64,000 bases of DNA, taken from Zobellia galactanivorans. GTDB lineage: Bacteria > Bacteroidota > Bacteroidia > Flavobacteriales > Flavobacteriaceae. Each line of letters opens with the position of its first letter. The first letter of the stretch is position 1. The notes below the pieces were generated by a model. The model ran no database searches. It was not told where the DNA came from and saw only the letters and a program-made list of their open reading frames with translations. The stretch is from assembly GCF_000973105.1 (NCBI RefSeq), contig NC_015844.1, positions 930,001-994,000 on the forward strand, written 5' to 3'. Positions 81 to 64,000 of the stretch are shown in pieces. The position numbers and the translations under genes are program-made.

Positions 81-110
81 TTTAAAATATCAATTTTAAT
101 TGTATCTTTG
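81..110 (+). promoter_or_regulatory. rpsO promoter (Bacteroidota type)
   Basis: TATCTTTG at 103-110 fits the Bacteroidota -7 element TAnnTTTG. A TTTA at 81-84 sits 18 bases upstream in the position of the -33 TTTG element. Transcription would start a few bases after 110, giving a leader of about 45-50 bases before the rpsO ATG at 165. Confidence 0.55.
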
Positions 111-164
111 CCGCTTGACCGAAAATCGGCCATATACATAAAAATCATTTAAAATAATATTGGC

Positions 165-434
165 ATGTATCTAACAAAAGAAGTAAAAGCCGAAATCTTT
201 AAGAAACACGGCGGAAAAGAGGAGAACACTGGTTCTACCGAAGGACAAATCGCATTGTTTACACACCGTATCAATCATTTGACCGGCCACTTAAAAAGAA
301 ACCACAAAGATTTCAACACTGAGCGTTCGTTAGTACGTTTGGTAGGTAAGAGAAGAAGTCTACTAGATTACTTGAAAAAGAAAGATATTGTAAAATATCG
401 TGAGCTTATCAAGGAACTAGGCATTAGAAAATAA
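165..434 (+). CDS. rpsO: 30S ribosomal protein S15
   Basis: S15 is a primary 16S rRNA-binding protein of the small-subunit platform and contacts 23S rRNA in an intersubunit bridge. The 89-residue length is exactly usual for the family. The signature is clear: the GSTEGQIALFTHRINHLTGH segment near residues 23-42, then HKDFNTERSL and the VGKRRSLLDYLKKKD block near residues 60-74. It has its own promoter and a strong terminator after it, so it seems to be transcribed alone, although pnp follows as in many bacteria. In E. coli S15 represses its own translation; no comparable leader fold was recognised here. Confidence 0.98.
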   Translation: MYLTKEVKAEIFKKHGGKEENTGSTEGQIALFTHRINHLTGHLKRNHKDFNTERSLVRLVGKRRSLLDYLKKKDIVKYRELIKELGIRK

Positions 435-40039: not shown

Positions 40040-40783
40040 ATGACCTATAAATCAACCGTATTACTTTTGTTCTTGATTACGGCTTTCTTTTCCTGTAAGT
40101 CACAACAACCGACCTTAACTTACAGTAGCGAGGACTTAAAAATCATCCCGCTCTCCAAAAACAGCTTCGTCCATATCTCTTACCTATCGACCGGAGACTT
40201 TGGAAAAGTGGCCTGTAACGGACTTATCTACATAAACCAAGGCCAGGCCGTTGTTTTCGATACGCCCACCGACAACGAAACTTCCGAAGAGCTCATCCAT
40301 TGGATAACCGAAACTAAAAAACAACAGATCAAGGCCGTGGTCATCAACCACTTTCACGACGACTGCCTTGGCGGGATCGAGGCCTTTCACGAACTAAGCA
40401 TTCCCTCTTACGCTAGCAATACGACCATAGAACTTGCTAAAAAAGAAGGAAACCCGGTTCCACAAATTGGTTTTGACACCACCAACGAACTGACCATTGG
40501 GAAGCAAAAAATAATCAACCGTCATTTTGGCGAGGCCCATACCAAAGACAACATTGTAAGTTACATCCCTAGCGAGCACCTCCTTTTTGGCGGATGCGCC
40601 CTTAAATCGCTCAATGCCGCCAAAGGATACCTAGGCGATGCGAACACCAACGAATGGGGCAACACCATCAAAAAGATAAAAGCAGCCTATCCCGACCTTA
40701 AAACGGCCATTCCCGGACACGGGGAATACGGAGGCTCAGAATTACTGGATTATACCATTTCCCTTTTTAGCACGAAACAATAA
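40040..40783 (+). CDS. subclass B1 metallo-beta-lactamase (lipoprotein)
   Basis: A zinc beta-lactamase of 247 residues. All subclass B1 ligands are present: HxHxD (H104, H106, D108 in HFHDDCLGG), H167 (FGEAHTKDN), C186 (FGGCALKS) and H227 (PGHGE). The N-terminus LLLFLITAFFSC is a lipoprotein signal with lipobox Cys 19, so the enzyme is expected to be anchored in the membrane facing the periplasm. B1 enzymes hydrolyse penicillins, cephalosporins and usually carbapenems; intrinsic chromosomal forms are common in flavobacteria (BlaB, MUS, TUS, JOHN types). No mobile element or composition break surrounds it, so it looks resident. Substrate range is unknown. Confidence 0.9.
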   Translation: MTYKSTVLLLFLITAFFSCKSQQPTLTYSSEDLKIIPLSKNSFVHISYLSTGDFGKVACNGLIYINQGQAVVFDTPTDNETSEELIHWITETKKQQIKAVVINHFHDDCLGGIEAFHELSIPSYASNTTIELAKKEGNPVPQIGFDTTNELTIGKQKIINRHFGEAHTKDNIVSYIPSEHLLFGGCALKSLNAAKGYLGDANTNEWGNTIKKIKAAYPDLKTAIPGHGEYGGSELLDYTISLFSTKQ

Positions 40784-59293: not shown

Positions 59294-60376
59294 CTATCCG
59301 TTTACAATCTTCTCTTGATGATTGATCGACTCTTGGTGAATGGCCTTGAACATTTTAAGGACAAATTCTTCACTCAATCCGCGAGATTCCCCTTCCAAGA
59401 TCATGGCTCCCAAAATCTGGTTCCAACGGTTCGACTGTAGTACGGCTACATTCTTCTGTTTTTTAAGCTCACCAATACTATCCGACACCTTCATACGTTT
59501 GCCCATAGTATCGATCAACTGGTTGTCGAGAATATCTATTTGCGCCCTAAGGTTGCTCAATTTAGCATTGTATTCGGCTTCGCTGTCGGTCTCTTTCCTG
59601 ATACGCAAATCTCTCATGATCTGCACCAACTTCTCCGGAGTAACCTGCTGAGCGGCATCACTCCAAGCATTGTCGGGATCAAAATGGGTCTCGATCATCA
59701 ATCCGTCGAAGTTCAGATCAAGTGCCGTTTGCGAAACATCAAAGATCATATCACGCTTACCGGTAATATGCGATGGGTCATTGATCAAAGGCAAATCGGG
59801 AAACTTGTTTTGGAACTCGATGGCCAATTGCCATTCGGGAATGTTCCTGTACTTCGTTTTCTCATAGGTAGAGAATCCTCTGTGGATGGCCCCTAACTTT
59901 CTGATCCCGGCGGTATGCAAACGTTCGATACCACCCAACCATAAAGCCAAATCAGGGTTTACAGGGTTCTTCACCAATACGATCTTATCAGTACCTTCCA
60001 AGGCATCTGCCAATTCTTGCATGATAAACGGACTCACGGTCGAGCGCGCTCCGATCCACAATAGATCTACATCATACTCCAATGCCAATTCAACATGGGC
60101 ACGATTGGCTACCTCTGTGGCCGTTTTTAATCCGGTTTCTTCCTTAACCTTCTGTAACCACTTCAAACCAAGTGCGCCAACACCTTCAAAGTTTCCTGGT
60201 CGTGTTCTTGGTTTCCAGATACCCGCACGGTAGTAGTTTACGTCGGTATCTTTTAACTCGTGAGCAATACGCAACACTTGTTCTTCGGTTTCAGCACTAC
60301 ATGGCCCTGCTATTACTAGTGGATGGTCTAACCCCATATCATCCAACCATGTTCTCATTTCTTTTGAATTCTCCAT
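59294..60376 (-). CDS. bifunctional DAHP synthase / chorismate mutase
   Basis: A 360-residue fusion. Residues about 1-260 are a type I-beta 3-deoxy-D-arabino-heptulosonate 7-phosphate synthase (VIAGPCSAETEEQVL near 20, GIWKPRTRPGNFEG near 52, KNPVNPDLALW near 136, NDPSHITGKRD near 198). Residues about 270-355 are an AroQ-type chorismate mutase (LRAQIDILDNQLIDTMGKRMKVSDSIGELK). It thus holds the first step of the shikimate pathway and the first step of the Phe/Tyr branch, an arrangement common in Bacteroidota, where the mutase domain can mediate feedback by prephenate. Last gene of the attenuator-controlled operon; its ATG shares a base with the tyrA stop. Confidence 0.95.
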   Translation of the reverse strand: MENSKEMRTWLDDMGLDHPLVIAGPCSAETEEQVLRIAHELKDTDVNYYRAGIWKPRTRPGNFEGVGALGLKWLQKVKEETGLKTATEVANRAHVELALEYDVDLLWIGARSTVSPFIMQELADALEGTDKIVLVKNPVNPDLALWLGGIERLHTAGIRKLGAIHRGFSTYEKTKYRNIPEWQLAIEFQNKFPDLPLINDPSHITGKRDMIFDVSQTALDLNFDGLMIETHFDPDNAWSDAAQQVTPEKLVQIMRDLRIRKETDSEAEYNAKLSNLRAQIDILDNQLIDTMGKRMKVSDSIGELKKQKNVAVLQSNRWNQILGAMILEGESRGLSEEFVLKMFKAIHQESINHQEKIVNG

Positions 60377-61236
60377 TACTTCTTGTTTAGTGGTATTCCG
60401 TTTAAAATTTCCTTTATTTTATTAGTATCGTTCATTTCGTTAAAAATTCCCGTGTAATCTCCTTTTTCCAATAGCTGTTTAAACTCTTGGAGGTTCTGTA
60501 TATATTCGGTCAAAGTTTCGACCACATTGTCTTTATTCTGTTTAAAAATTGGCGTCCACATGGCCGGCGAACTCTTGGCCAACCTTACCGTACTCTCGAA
60601 ACCACTGCCCGCCATGTCAAAAATATCACGTTCATTTTTCTCTTTATCGATTACGGTCTTTCCCAACATAAAAGAGCTGATATGTGACAAATGCGACACA
60701 TAGGCAATGTGCTTGTCATGGGCATCGGGGTTCATGTACCGAATACGCATTCCTATCTGCTGAAAAAGTTCCAGGGCCTTTTCCTGAAGCTTAAAGGCGG
60801 TTTTCTCTATCTCGCAGATAATATTCGTTTTACCCACGTATAAATTTTCAATGGCCGCCGACGGTCCCGAATGCTCCGTACCCGCAATGGGGTGCGCCGC
60901 CAGGTAATTTCTTCGTTTAGGGTGCGAATCTAAGGTTTTACAGATCAAACTTTTTGTAGACCCGCCATCAAAGACCACACAATCATCGTTAACCGCATCC
61001 AATATCTTAGGAAGCTCGGTAACCATAACATCTACGGGAATGCTAACAATGACCATATCGGCCACCCCTAGATCGTCGTAACTCGACTCTACATCGATGA
61101 TCCCCAGATCCAAGGCTTCGCGCAAATGCGAAACATTCGTATCTATACCGTAAATCTTGCACTCTGGGCGCAGGCGTTTGATATCCTTTGCAAAGGAACC
61201 TCCTATCAACCCGACACCAACTATAAAAACATTCAT
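60376..61236 (-). CDS. tyrA: prephenate dehydrogenase
   Basis: NAD(P)-dependent oxidative decarboxylation of prephenate to 4-hydroxyphenylpyruvate for tyrosine. The 286-residue chain has an N-terminal Rossmann motif (VGVGLIGGSFAKDIK), DGGSTKSLI and the AAHPIAGTEHSGPSAA segment near 117 containing the catalytic His, then VSHLSHISSFML near 179. There is no ACT domain, so feedback by tyrosine at the protein level is not evident. It lies 23 bases after the aminotransferase. Confidence 0.94.
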   Translation of the reverse strand: MNVFIVGVGLIGGSFAKDIKRLRPECKIYGIDTNVSHLREALDLGIIDVESSYDDLGVADMVIVSIPVDVMVTELPKILDAVNDDCVVFDGGSTKSLICKTLDSHPKRRNYLAAHPIAGTEHSGPSAAIENLYVGKTNIICEIEKTAFKLQEKALELFQQIGMRIRYMNPDAHDKHIAYVSHLSHISSFMLGKTVIDKEKNERDIFDMAGSGFESTVRLAKSSPAMWTPIFKQNKDNVVETLTEYIQNLQEFKQLLEKGDYTGIFNEMNDTNKIKEILNGIPLNKK

Positions 61237-61259: not shown

Positions 61260-62405
61260 CTAAAAACGGCTTATCGCCTCTTCAATCTTTTCTTCGGGCA
61301 CACACAATGAAAATCGTATATACCCTTCGCCCTTACTTCCAAAAATGGTTCCCGGGGTTATAAAAAGGTTCTTTTCGTACAGTACCTCATCTATAAACTC
61401 TTCGGCAGATTTGCTTCCTTCCGGCAACTTTGCCCAAAGGAACATTCCAACCGCATCGGTATCATAGGTACAGTTCAATTTATCGGCCAATTGACACATA
61501 AGCGCCTTTCTAGAGCGATATACCTCATTCAGCCTATCGAACCAATCTTGATCACTTTTCAGGGCCTCTATGGCTCCTTTCTGAATTCCGTAGAACATCC
61601 CCGAATCCATATTACTTTTTACCTTTAGCACGGCATTGATATGTTCGGCCCCGCCCAATACCATTCCTACGCGCCAACCGGCCATATTAAAGGTCTTGCT
61701 CAAGGAGTTTAGCTCTAGGGCCACCTCTTTCGCCCCATCGACGGCCAAAATACTTGCCGGCGCATCGTTAAGCACGAAACTATAGGGGTTGTCGTTTACC
61801 AAAAGGATATCGTTCTTTTTGGCAAATTCCACCAATTTTTCAAACTGCCCTTTTGTCGCCGTGGCCCCGGTCGGCATATGGGGGTAACTTGTCCACATGA
61901 TCTTTACCTTTGACAAATCGTGTTCCTGCAATTCTTCCAAATCGGGAAACCATCCGCTTTCGGCACTTAGGTTATAATATTTTGCCTCTGCCCCTACCAA
62001 CTTCGTGACCGAGGTATAGGTAGGATAGCCCGGATTGGGTATCAAGGCAACATCGCCCTCGTTCAAAAAGGCCATGCTAATGTGCATAATACCTTCCTTT
62101 GAACCCATTAAGGGTAAAATCTCGGTCAATGGATCTACCGTAACATCGAATTTTTCACTATAAAAATCCGCTACACCCTGACGCAGTTCGGGCAAACCCT
62201 GATAACTCTGATACTGGTGTGCACCTTCTTCCAAGACCGCATCTTGAATACTCTTTATGATCGCTTCTGAGGGAGCCAGATCCGGACTTCCGATACCCAT
62301 ATTGATCACGGGCCTTCCTTCGGCGATCAAACCTCTTACCTCTCGCAACTTTTTCGAGAAGTAATATTCTTCAACTGTATGTAAACGATTTGCCGTTCGT
62401 ATCAT
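61260..62405 (-). CDS. PLP-dependent aminotransferase (aromatic amino acid synthesis)
   Basis: A class I/II aminotransferase of 381 residues. Substrate loop GIGSPDLAPS near residue 37, NPGYPTYTSV near 122, the NDNPY segment near 204 and the Schiff-base lysine in SLSKTFNMAGWRVG near 234 are present. Located between pheA (4-base overlap) and tyrA, it is inferred to convert phenylpyruvate and hydroxyphenylpyruvate to Phe and Tyr, which completes the branch. Sequence alone would also permit aspartate or diaminopimelate as substrate. Confidence 0.9.
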   Translation of the reverse strand: MIRTANRLHTVEEYYFSKKLREVRGLIAEGRPVINMGIGSPDLAPSEAIIKSIQDAVLEEGAHQYQSYQGLPELRQGVADFYSEKFDVTVDPLTEILPLMGSKEGIMHISMAFLNEGDVALIPNPGYPTYTSVTKLVGAEAKYYNLSAESGWFPDLEELQEHDLSKVKIMWTSYPHMPTGATATKGQFEKLVEFAKKNDILLVNDNPYSFVLNDAPASILAVDGAKEVALELNSLSKTFNMAGWRVGMVLGGAEHINAVLKVKSNMDSGMFYGIQKGAIEALKSDQDWFDRLNEVYRSRKALMCQLADKLNCTYDTDAVGMFLWAKLPEGSKSAEEFIDEVLYEKNLFITPGTIFGSKGEGYIRFSLCVPEEKIEEAISRF

Positions 62406-63229
62406 ATTCTCGCATTTTTATATTCACCCAACACCTTAAAGTCTTCCGACATGATGTTCAACAGTGATTTTGCCTTGTCGAAACAATCATAACCATCAAA
62501 AGTCACGTCAACAAAAAAGGCGTATTTCCATGGTGTCTCAATTATGGGCAGCGACTGTATTTTGGTCAAGTTCAAATTGCAATCGCTCATAACATTAAGC
62601 ACAGCCGCAAGACTTCCGCGTTTATGGTCGGTAACAAAACGTACCGAGGCCTTGTTGATCTCTTCCTTCGGAAGCACTTTATTTTTTGTCTTTACAATAA
62701 TAAAGCGGGTTGCATTGTTTTGAATGGTCTGTATGTCCCGTGCTACGATGTTCAAATCGTATAAATCGGCGGCAACTTCCGGAGCTATGGCCGCAATATG
62801 CCTTAACTGTTGCTCTTGAATCCGTTTTGCCGTTTCGGCCGTATCAACATCTTCCACCATTTTAATGTGTGGATAATCGCCAAAAAATTCCTTGCACTGC
62901 AACAGGGCCATAGGGTGCGACCTCACTTCTTCAATATCGGCTATTTCCTGTCCCTTTAAGGCCATTAAATGGTGATGGATATTAAGGTAGTGCTCCCCAA
63001 TAATATGCAAATCCTTATGGTAAACCAGGGCATAGTTCGGTATGATCGAGCCAGCAATTGAATTCTCAATGGCCATTACACCTATATCAGCGGTCTTTTG
63101 CAGCAATTGATCTACCAAGAAATCAAACGACATACATTCTACCAAATCTACATTATCATCAAAATACTCTCGGGCTACTTGGTGGTGGTTAGACCCCTTA
63201 ATTCCCTGAATGGCTATTTTTAGCTTCAT
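62402..63229 (-). CDS. pheA: prephenate dehydratase
   Basis: Converts prephenate to phenylpyruvate. The 275-residue protein has the PDT domain (AIQGIKGSNHHQVAREYF at the start, GVMAIENSIAGSI near 50, the NNATRFIIV motif near 170) and a C-terminal ACT domain (about 190-270, GSLAAVLNVMSDCNLNLTKIQSLPI) that should bind Phe for feedback inhibition. The chorismate mutase domain seen in E. coli PheA is absent; here the mutase is on the DAHP synthase. First gene of the operon, 60 bases after an attenuator terminator. Confidence 0.96.
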   Translation of the reverse strand: MKLKIAIQGIKGSNHHQVAREYFDDNVDLVECMSFDFLVDQLLQKTADIGVMAIENSIAGSIIPNYALVYHKDLHIIGEHYLNIHHHLMALKGQEIADIEEVRSHPMALLQCKEFFGDYPHIKMVEDVDTAETAKRIQEQQLRHIAAIAPEVAADLYDLNIVARDIQTIQNNATRFIIVKTKNKVLPKEEINKASVRFVTDHKRGSLAAVLNVMSDCNLNLTKIQSLPIIETPWKYAFFVDVTFDGYDCFDKAKSLLNIMSEDFKVLGEYKNARI

Positions 63230-63289
63230 AACTGGCTTTCTGCCTTATGGGAAACACTTTTAAACGATAATTCCCAATAGGTATTGAAC

Positions 63290-63317
63290 AAAAAAAGTCC
63301 CGTTTTTCACGGGACTT
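63290..63317 (-). terminator. attenuator terminator upstream of pheA
   Basis: On the minus strand AAGTCCCGT (63317..63309) pairs with ACGGGACTT (63303..63295) around loop GAAAA, followed by a run of seven T (63296..63290). It is 60 bases before the pheA start and after a Phe-rich leader ORF, so it acts within the leader rather than at a gene end. Confidence 0.88.
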
Positions 63318-63357
63318 CAATTGGTTTATATCATGCAATATTTTACAACAGTCCCGT
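63309..63357 (-). promoter_or_regulatory. antiterminator of the pheA attenuator
   Basis: ACGGGACT (63357..63350), in the last codons of the leader ORF, is an exact copy of the terminator's 3' arm and can pair with AGTCCCGT (63316..63309), the terminator's 5' arm. The two pairings exclude each other. A ribosome stalled on the Phe/Tyr codons leaves the copy free (antitermination); one that reaches the stop codon covers it (termination). Confidence 0.82.
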
Positions 63358-63414
63358 ACCTCTCTCAAAAAAGAAGTAAAAATAAAAACCGTTGAAAAAG
63401 AATCGCTTTGTCAT
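63343..63414 (-). CDS. pheL: Phe/Tyr-rich leader peptide of the pheA operon
   Basis: A 23-codon ORF, ATG 63414 to TAA 63345..63343. It begins MTKRFFFNGFYFYFFFE and ends RGTGLL; 8 of 23 codons are Phe and 2 are Tyr, ten of them within positions 5-16. This is the make-up of attenuation leader peptides such as E. coli PheL. Its last codons overlap the antiterminator arm. The symbol is used by analogy of role, not by homology. Both products of the operon below are the amino acids that it counts. Confidence 0.85.
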   Translation of the reverse strand: MTKRFFFNGFYFYFFFERGTGLL

Positions 63415-63432
63415 AACACACTTAAACTTCGG

Positions 63433-63460
63433 CTAAAGTAACAATTAAATTTAAAAATAA
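63433..63460 (-). promoter_or_regulatory. likely promoter of the pheA leader transcript
   Basis: The minus strand reads TACTTTAG at 63440..63433, one base from TAnnTTTG, with a T-rich stretch about 20 bases upstream as a weak -33 region. Transcription would begin about 12 bases before the leader ATG. Confidence 0.4.
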
Positions 63461-63668
63461 ACGGGTAGAACCGATTTTTTTCCAATTTATATGTATCTCG
63501 CACTCAGGCATTGGTCTATTTTTATATTTCATAGTTCGCAGACACCTTTTTAAAAAATACGATATTACTTAATTGTTTATTTTTGATGGATGAACCGAAA
63601 GTACCCTTAAAAAGTACATCGTTAAAATCTACATTCAGAACAACTATCTAACTTTCATTTGTCCCAAT

Positions 63669-64000
63669 ATGTCTATAAGCGTCTACAAAATCAGCAAAAC
63701 TTTCGGAAGCCAAAAAGCTTTGAAGAACATCAGCTTTAAACTTCAAAAAGGGGAAATCGTTGGTTTTTTAGGGCCGAACGGCGCCGGAAAGTCAACCATG
63801 ATGAAGATACTGACCACCTATTATACGGCCGATAAAGGTGAGGCTTCGGTCAACTCCTTCGATGTTCTGACGGAAAAGAAAAAAGTTCAAGAGAGTATCG
63901 GCTACCTGCCCGAGCACAACCCCCTATATCTAGACATGTATGTAAAGGAATACCTTGCCTTTAACGCAGATGTCTACAAAACGGACAAAGCCAGGATACC
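63669..64000 (+). CDS. gldA: gliding motility ABC transporter ATPase GldA (5' part)
   Basis: The first 110 codons of an ABC ATPase cut by the window end. MSISVYKISKTFGSQKALKN is followed by the Walker A loop GFLGPNGAGKSTMMKILTTYY (about residues 32-52) and the Q-loop region SIGYLPEHNPLYLDMYVKEYLAFNADVYK, wording specific to GldA. With GldF and GldG it forms an ABC transporter linked to gliding in Flavobacterium; it is not universal among gliding members. It is divergent from the Phe/Tyr operon. Confidence 0.93.
   Translation, partial: MSISVYKISKTFGSQKALKNISFKLQKGEIVGFLGPNGAGKSTMMKILTTYYTADKGEASVNSFDVLTEKKKVQESIGYLPEHNPLYLDMYVKEYLAFNADVYKTDKARI

Follow-up and report, generated by a model that had tools for sequence, protein, structure and literature searches.

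Does the DNA ahead of pheA in Zobellia galactanivorans carry an attenuator, in which a ribosome translating a short leader decides whether the operon is transcribed? Attenuation, the textbook example of transcription coupled to translation, was worked out in proteobacteria and is little studied in Bacteroidota. The locus belongs to the window, by which we mean the whole stretch of 64,000 nucleotides that was analysed (NC_015844.1, positions 930,001 to 994,000); all coordinates below are window positions. An initial annotation had read the locus as a ribosome-mediated attenuator of a Phe/Tyr operon, and comparison with relatives speaks for this reading through conservation, codon constraint and the swap and slide controls. 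We consider it highly probable that the pheA-operon leader is a trp/phe-type ribosome-mediated transcription attenuator that responds to how much charged tRNA-Phe and tRNA-Tyr is available.

The genes that had been named downstream of the leader were all confirmed by Pfam. The prephenate dehydratase gene pheA (62402..63229, minus; PF00800, E 2.2e-57), whose product ends in a weak match to the ACT domain (PF01842, 21.9 bits, below the cut-off of 27), is followed by a class I/II aminotransferase gene (61260..62405, minus; PF00155), by tyrA for prephenate dehydrogenase (60376..61236, minus; PF02153 and PF20463) and by a gene for a DAHP synthase fused to chorismate mutase (59294..60376, minus; PF00793 and PF01817). 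Among the 80 named loci, the best 80 of 569, 77 have the four genes in this order, and the remaining three show fewer genes. Domains and gene order both indicate that the operon makes the amino acids read by the leader, as attenuators of this class do.

The leader peptide ORF, MTKRFFFNGFYFYFFFERGTGLL followed by a TAA stop, was found again at 63414..63343 (minus) with the 23 codons, 8 for Phe and 2 for Tyr, that had been claimed. It would represent the short leader ORF, rich in codons for the regulated amino acids, that is typical of the class. Past its stop lies the hairpin GAAGTCCCGT-GAAAA-ACGGGACTTT at 63318..63294, followed by a T-run. This is the terminator that had been described with 9 base pairs and that we count as 10. 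Its 5' arm, region 3, is GAAGTCCCGT (63309..63318, minus) and its 3' arm, region 4, is ACGGGACTTT (63294..63303, minus), after which the U-run extends from 63293 downwards. The hairpin starts 24 bases past the leader stop, and the pheA start follows 64 bases beyond the hairpin, giving 113 nt from leader stop to pheA start. The last 8 bases of region 3 (63316-63309) can also pair with region 2, ACGGGACT (63350..63357, minus), which occupies leader codons 20-22. This antiterminator left arm is indeed the exact 8-base copy of a part of the terminator 3' arm that had been reported in the final codons of the leader. From its last base to the last base of the leader stop codon the distance is 7 positions. 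Antiterminator and terminator are mutually exclusive pairings, and a terminating ribosome should be able to mask the left arm.

For the comparison with relatives we used a detector with two parts. The first is an ATG ORF, 10-45 codons long, in which a stretch of 9 residues contains 5 or more Phe/Tyr; the second, at most 60 bases past this ORF, is a hairpin with 7 or more pairs and a T-rich tail. The terminator filter originally demanded 4 or more G-C pairs and was relaxed to 3 or more after one locus (L131) had been inspected; the controls were run with the final detector. Leader and terminator were found together in 102 of 107 upstream regions of 400 nt from the family. Dinucleotide shuffles of these regions never gave the pair (0 of 2140), and among 3494 tiles from other parts of the relatives' loci it appeared in 3. 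A Phe/Tyr leader-like ORF alone is not rare, occurring in 152 of the 2140 shuffles and in 95 of the 3494 tiles, and is therefore unconvincing by itself. With up to 700 upstream bases, both parts were detected in 104 of the 107 family genomes that have pheA (out of a sample of 120 genomes). The initial annotation had named a relative without the leader as an outcome that would count against it; the detected module is missing in three of the 107 genomes (L191, L213 and L239, of which L239 has no more than 380 upstream bases) and present in the other 104. Among the named loci, which come from a second collection, leader and terminator were found in 80 of 80, these being the best, hence closest, 80 of 569 confirmed. 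The nearest named relatives are Zobellia, and the pheA of Z. uliginosa DSM 2061 shows 100% identity. Two loci carry repeated elements upstream of pheA: L164, where leader and terminator lie more than 500 bases upstream of the gene, and L213, where the leader was not found upstream of pheA. Of 636 overlapping tiles cut from the window, the detector scores two. One is the pheA leader; the other, at about 40200-40600 (minus), has the ORF MTVDYFLLPNGQFVGGVKTNLWNRVSFFFSKFYGRIASVRGNA and is probably a chance match.

Is the leader constrained as a reading frame? The following comparisons use a close set of 75 distinct relatives, which remain from 89 loci after removal of 12 duplicates and of L015 and L087, both of which have leader and terminator. 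Counted with its stop, the leader has 24 codons in 70 and 23 codons in 5 of the 75. Of 149 codons that depart from the consensus in its aromatic columns, 134 remain codons for Phe, Tyr or Trp, compared with a fraction of 0.20 expected from single random changes. The median content of the 104 family leaders is 5 Phe and 3 Tyr. These data bear on the idea that the hairpin is a constitutive partial terminator that merely lowers expression, next to an unrelated T-rich ORF in which poly-U gives Phe codons by chance. The region is AT-rich, leader-like ORFs alone do appear in the 152 shuffles mentioned above, and insulation might be needed for the ORF that diverges at 63669, which looks ABC-transporter-like by eye. 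However, start, stop, length and aromatic codons of the leader are conserved, the non-consensus codons stay aromatic, and the antiterminator pairing tracks the changes of the terminator in the family and class sets described below. We give this explanation hardly any chance. A Trp codon is also present in 73 of the 104 family Phe/Tyr leaders; such codons would perhaps suit an operon whose DAHP synthase supplies all three aromatic pathways.

Next to the codons stand the base pairs. The terminator stem is paired in 99.0% of cells in the 75 close relatives, compared with a mean of 90.6% and a maximum of 92.7% in dealt shuffles, in which the 3' letters are dealt anew. Its double-change cells number 54 versus 12.7 in these shuffles. 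The intrinsic terminator expected between the leader and the first gene of such an attenuator is thus present as a covarying stem. For the antiterminator, 93.2% of cells are paired, while the slid controls reach 24-48%. The dealt shuffles still pair 91.8% on average (maximum 92.8%); because they come so near to the observed value, the antiterminator pairing inside the close set is mostly plain conservation. Its double-change cells number 12 versus 3.8 in the shuffles and up to 13 in the slid controls, and since the slid controls match this count, we rejected it as stand-alone evidence. The exact 8-base copy is not general either: all 8 pairs are Watson-Crick in 13 of the 75 distinct close relatives. 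When G-U is counted, 36 of them have 8 pairs, 37 have 7 and 2 have 6; the outermost pair fails in 29 and the next one in 9. Measured from the stop codon, the best 2:3 duplex has its end in an identical position in 67 of the 75.

More information on the antiterminator came from swapping arms between loci. Over the 104 family loci, the own arm gives a mean of -10.74 kcal/mol and the differing arms of other loci give -7.98 kcal/mol, kinship being uncorrected. The lowest of 5000 permutations was -8.91 kcal/mol and in 99 of the 104 the own arm gave an energy no higher than the swapped median, again with kinship uncorrected. For the 20 class loci the values are -13.36 (own) and -10.57 kcal/mol (swapped), with the own arm at or below the swapped median in 19 of 20, likewise uncorrected for kinship. 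Inside the close set own and swapped arms differ little (-12.39 versus -11.77 kcal/mol; at or below the median in only 51 of 75) because the arms are nearly alike. Matched changes can be read directly from the arms: CGGGAC/GTCCCG in Zobellia relatives becomes CGAGAC/GTCTCG in loci such as L160 and L166, and in L131 TCAGGATT stands with AATCCTGA. To judge by these alignments, the arms of terminator and antiterminator change together between species. The check that had been proposed for the locus, a search among related Flavobacteriaceae for conserved Phe/Tyr codons and covarying arms, has thereby come out in favour of the attenuator.

The predicted fold contains a further element that the initial annotation had not mentioned. 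Region 1, CAACGGTTTT (63385..63394, minus), is predicted to pair with 63346-63355 and to form a 1:2 protector, in which CAACGGUUUU (63394-63385) faces GGGACUGUUG (63355-63346) and encloses an inner hairpin, UACUUCUUU / AGAGAGGUA (63357..63378, minus). In the 75 relatives the protector is paired in 92.4% of cells, with 39-56% in slid controls; the dealt shuffles have a mean of 90.6%, and 1 of 1000 reaches 92.4%. The inner hairpin is paired in 91.5% of cells versus 54-69% in slid controls, and none of 1000 dealt shuffles reaches the observed value (mean 90.3%, maximum 91.3%). In six sequences an A-U pair of the inner hairpin has become U-A; one side changes with a Tyr-to-Phe codon replacement and the other with a Gly-to-Glu replacement. 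The median energies in the 75 close relatives are nearly equal, with -13.8 kcal/mol for 1:2, -14.1 kcal/mol for 2:3 and -14.5 kcal/mol for 3:4, which is what a switch ruled by the order of synthesis and the position of the ribosome needs. As predicted from the sequence, the 1:2 hairpin completes the trp/phe-type set of parts. Leader, terminator and antiterminator were annotated correctly, and the architecture is fuller than described, with the 1:2 hairpin, a conserved promoter-like box and the Trp codon of the relatives left unmentioned.

The conservation of the leader allows a different reading, in which nascent-peptide arrest of the TnaC type controls the terminator and the leader peptide itself, rather than the speed of decoding, stalls the ribosome when free Phe or Tyr is sensed. 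The peptide is strikingly conserved in the close relatives and this includes non-aromatic residues (NG, KRGTGLL). Yet the codons of the conserved C-terminus also make up region 2, and those of NG form part of region 1. Furthermore, distant loci differ at the C-terminus of the peptide (NETLYV, SRD and others), while pairing with their own terminator is still better than with those of others, and the aromatic columns interchange Phe, Tyr and Trp. Arrest by the peptide is consequently very unlikely in our view.

A ribosome-mediated attenuator with these parts would work in the following way. When Phe and Tyr are ample, the ribosome should reach the stop codon and cover region 2; with region 2 covered, the 3:4 terminator would form and RNA polymerase would stop ahead of pheA. 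When charged tRNA is short, the ribosome would halt in codons 5-16, its footprint ending just ahead of region 2, and for most of these codons it would mask region 1. Region 2 would then be free, the 2:3 antiterminator could form before region 4 is made, and the operon would be transcribed. If no ribosome is present, 1:2 and 3:4 would form, transcription would stop and the operon would be off. The spacing was inspected for the last Phe codon: with this codon in the A site, 12 bases (Phe16 to Gly19) lie ahead of region 2. The footprint of a ribosome extends about 12-13 bases beyond the start of the A site, which places its edge just at region 2.

How the leader itself is started was examined upstream of its ATG. 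A Shine-Dalgarno-like motif was found in none of the 75 close relatives and in 1 of the 104 family loci. A candidate -7 promoter box, TACTTTAG (63433..63440, minus), follows the pattern TAnnTT[AT]G and lies 26 nt upstream of the leader ATG. It resembles the TAnnTTTG box described in the available part of PMC9723704. Such a box occurs at most 45 nt from the leader ATG in 70 of the 75 close relatives, at exactly -26 in 46 of these, and in 316 of 3750 mononucleotide-shuffled 45-mers as control. With the box this near to the ATG, little transcript probably precedes the leader.

Could the leader instead act mainly through Rho or at the level of translation, for instance by reinitiation at pheA, with the hairpin only secondary? 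Leader genes of Bacteroidetes were indeed reported to peak 11-14 bp ahead of the structural gene, which was read as reinitiation (PMC4833913, as far as its text is accessible). In the pheA locus, however, 113 nt separate the leader stop from the pheA start. The spacing from stop to terminator is steadier than that from stop to pheA, with 20-27 nt in 80 of the 104 family loci and a range of 18-53, and a hairpin with a T-rich tail, a feature on which the detector insists, is present in 80 of 80 named loci, the best 80 of 569. We regard control of this kind as extremely improbable for the main output and retain transcription attenuation as the preferred reading.

How does the locus relate to known leaders? 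The Phe_leader family of Rfam (RF01859) gives 31.8 bits (E 0.0013 in a 361-base search), below the gathering cut-off of 55. A scan of the whole window returned no Phe_leader match at gathering score, and a search of seven relatives returned none at E up to 0.1. One of them, L140, has a Thr_leader match that is likewise sub-threshold (29.4 bits). Because the Rfam matches are only sub-threshold, we claim no homology to the enterobacterial leaders; the pheA attenuator is an analogue of Phe_leader by mechanism and not a member by score. A T-box or riboswitch is absent from the two gathering-score matches of the window and from the six matches at E at most 1 in 63200-63560. Elsewhere in the window, a S15-Flavobacteria ribosomal protein leader (RF03161) was matched at 103-167 (+) with 74.5 bits. 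The enterobacterial pheL-pheA system has a Phe-rich leader ORF, mutually exclusive antiterminator and U-tailed terminator, and pheA downstream. The locus studied here has in common with it the leader rich in Phe codons, the exclusive antiterminator and U-tailed terminator and the downstream pheA. It differs in the additional Tyr codons, in Trp codons in the 73 of 104 family leaders, in the four-gene Phe/Tyr operon, in the lack of a Shine-Dalgarno-like motif and in the Bacteroidota-like promoter box.

Additional leaders were recognised by eye in the genome of Z. galactanivorans. Ahead of hisG (L228) we found the leader MKNRNTHHHFYTGSQAR with THHH, ahead of trpE (L229) the leader MNRNNVNTWWWNNSRQTS with WWW, and ahead of one of two ilvD-family genes (L231) the leader MKISTHTIVVVRVIPKEE with IVVV, each of them followed by a hairpin. 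The second trpE-domain match (L230) and the second ilvD match (L232) of this genome have no such leader by eye. Upstream of thrA (L235) lies a Thr/Ile-containing ORF, MYQHIANISTELFFTTNGSINTFGTTTPLG, for which a U-tailed terminator was not found. Attenuation seems to be used repeatedly in this genome, and the his, trp and ilvD leaders raise the odds for attenuation at pheA.

The pheA attenuator extends beyond the family. A class sample of 158 genomes contained 44 with a prephenate dehydratase domain, 39 of them outside the family. With this detector, both parts were found in 20 of the 39, the leader only in 3 and neither part in 16. In one family (f61), 11 of 21 loci carry two Phe/Tyr(/Trp) leaders in series upstream of pheA, each with its own terminator (L147, L275, L276, L278, L281, L282, L283, L284, L286, L289 and L290). 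A second family (f36) has two modules, each with a terminator, in 1 of 3 loci (L272). In a third family (f48), two leaders are present in 4 of 20 examined loci (L257, L259, L260 and L261); the hairpin after the second leader is bulged in these four, was missed by the detector and is seen in the fold, and the first terminator of L261 was judged by eye. L268 and L269, which are one split gene, and L293, with a weak second match, were left out of the tandem count. The double module occurs in none of the 107 genomes of the window's own family, and the window itself has a single attenuator. In the 11 tandem loci, pairing with the own terminator gives means of -10.6 and -10.8, versus -9.2 and -8.8 with the terminator of the other module, several single loci being reversed. 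We lean towards the view that Phe/Tyr attenuation of pheA is old and widespread in Bacteroidia and that it was doubled in several families, where serial modules for the same signal would multiply termination and give a steeper response with lower leak.

These serial double attenuators, which lie outside the window, are the most novel observation. The tandem attenuators that we met in the literature searched, as far as it is accessible, are those of Salmonella mgtCBR, where two leader ORFs answer different signals, ATP and proline (PMC3641672). What the cases share is a single leader mRNA that contains two leader ORFs one after the other. Unlike mgtCBR, as described in the accessible text, both leaders of a Bacteroidia pair appear to respond to identical amino acids, and a separate U-tailed hairpin accompanies each of them.

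The single pheA attenuator is not new in kind. The accessible text of a transcriptome study of Flavobacterium psychrophilum (2021) reports clues to leader-peptide attenuation ahead of amino-acid operons, and a structured 5' element before pheA that is conserved in other Flavobacteriaceae and has no Rfam match (PMC9723704). This is very probably the same element as the one described here. For pheA, the accessible part of that text shows neither a leader sequence nor arms nor covariation; what is added here is the survey of the pheA attenuator over 107 family genomes and other families. The earlier suggestion that such a mechanism may be unreported in Bacteroidota therefore holds in part. The F. 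psychrophilum study already contains attenuation clues and the pheA element, while a direct experimental test of the Phe/Tyr response in Bacteroidota was not found in the literature searched. Classic attenuation had been predicted in bacteria by comparative genomics (Lyubetsky 2007, Lopatovskaya 2010, as referenced in the accessible part of PMC4833913). In Bacteroides thetaiotaomicron, sORFs in 5' UTRs were likened to leader peptides (PMC7366714, accessible part). The likeness lies in short ORFs within long 5' UTRs of a member of the Bacteroidota; unlike here, the example given in that part concerns the UTR of a hypothetical protein and not pheA, and its sORFs are unvalidated. The accessible parts of PMC2864571 and PMC6429828 do not mention a pheA leader element.

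In summary, the parts of an attenuator are kept before pheA across a family whose leaders are without Shine-Dalgarno-like motifs. The pheA leader allows a direct test of whether the ribosomes of Bacteroidota trail the polymerase closely enough for coupling to control genes. The serial double attenuators would be a natural test of why cells put two decisions on one signal consecutively. If attenuation works as proposed, it would explain how these bacteria set the flux to Phe, to Tyr and into the common aromatic pathway.
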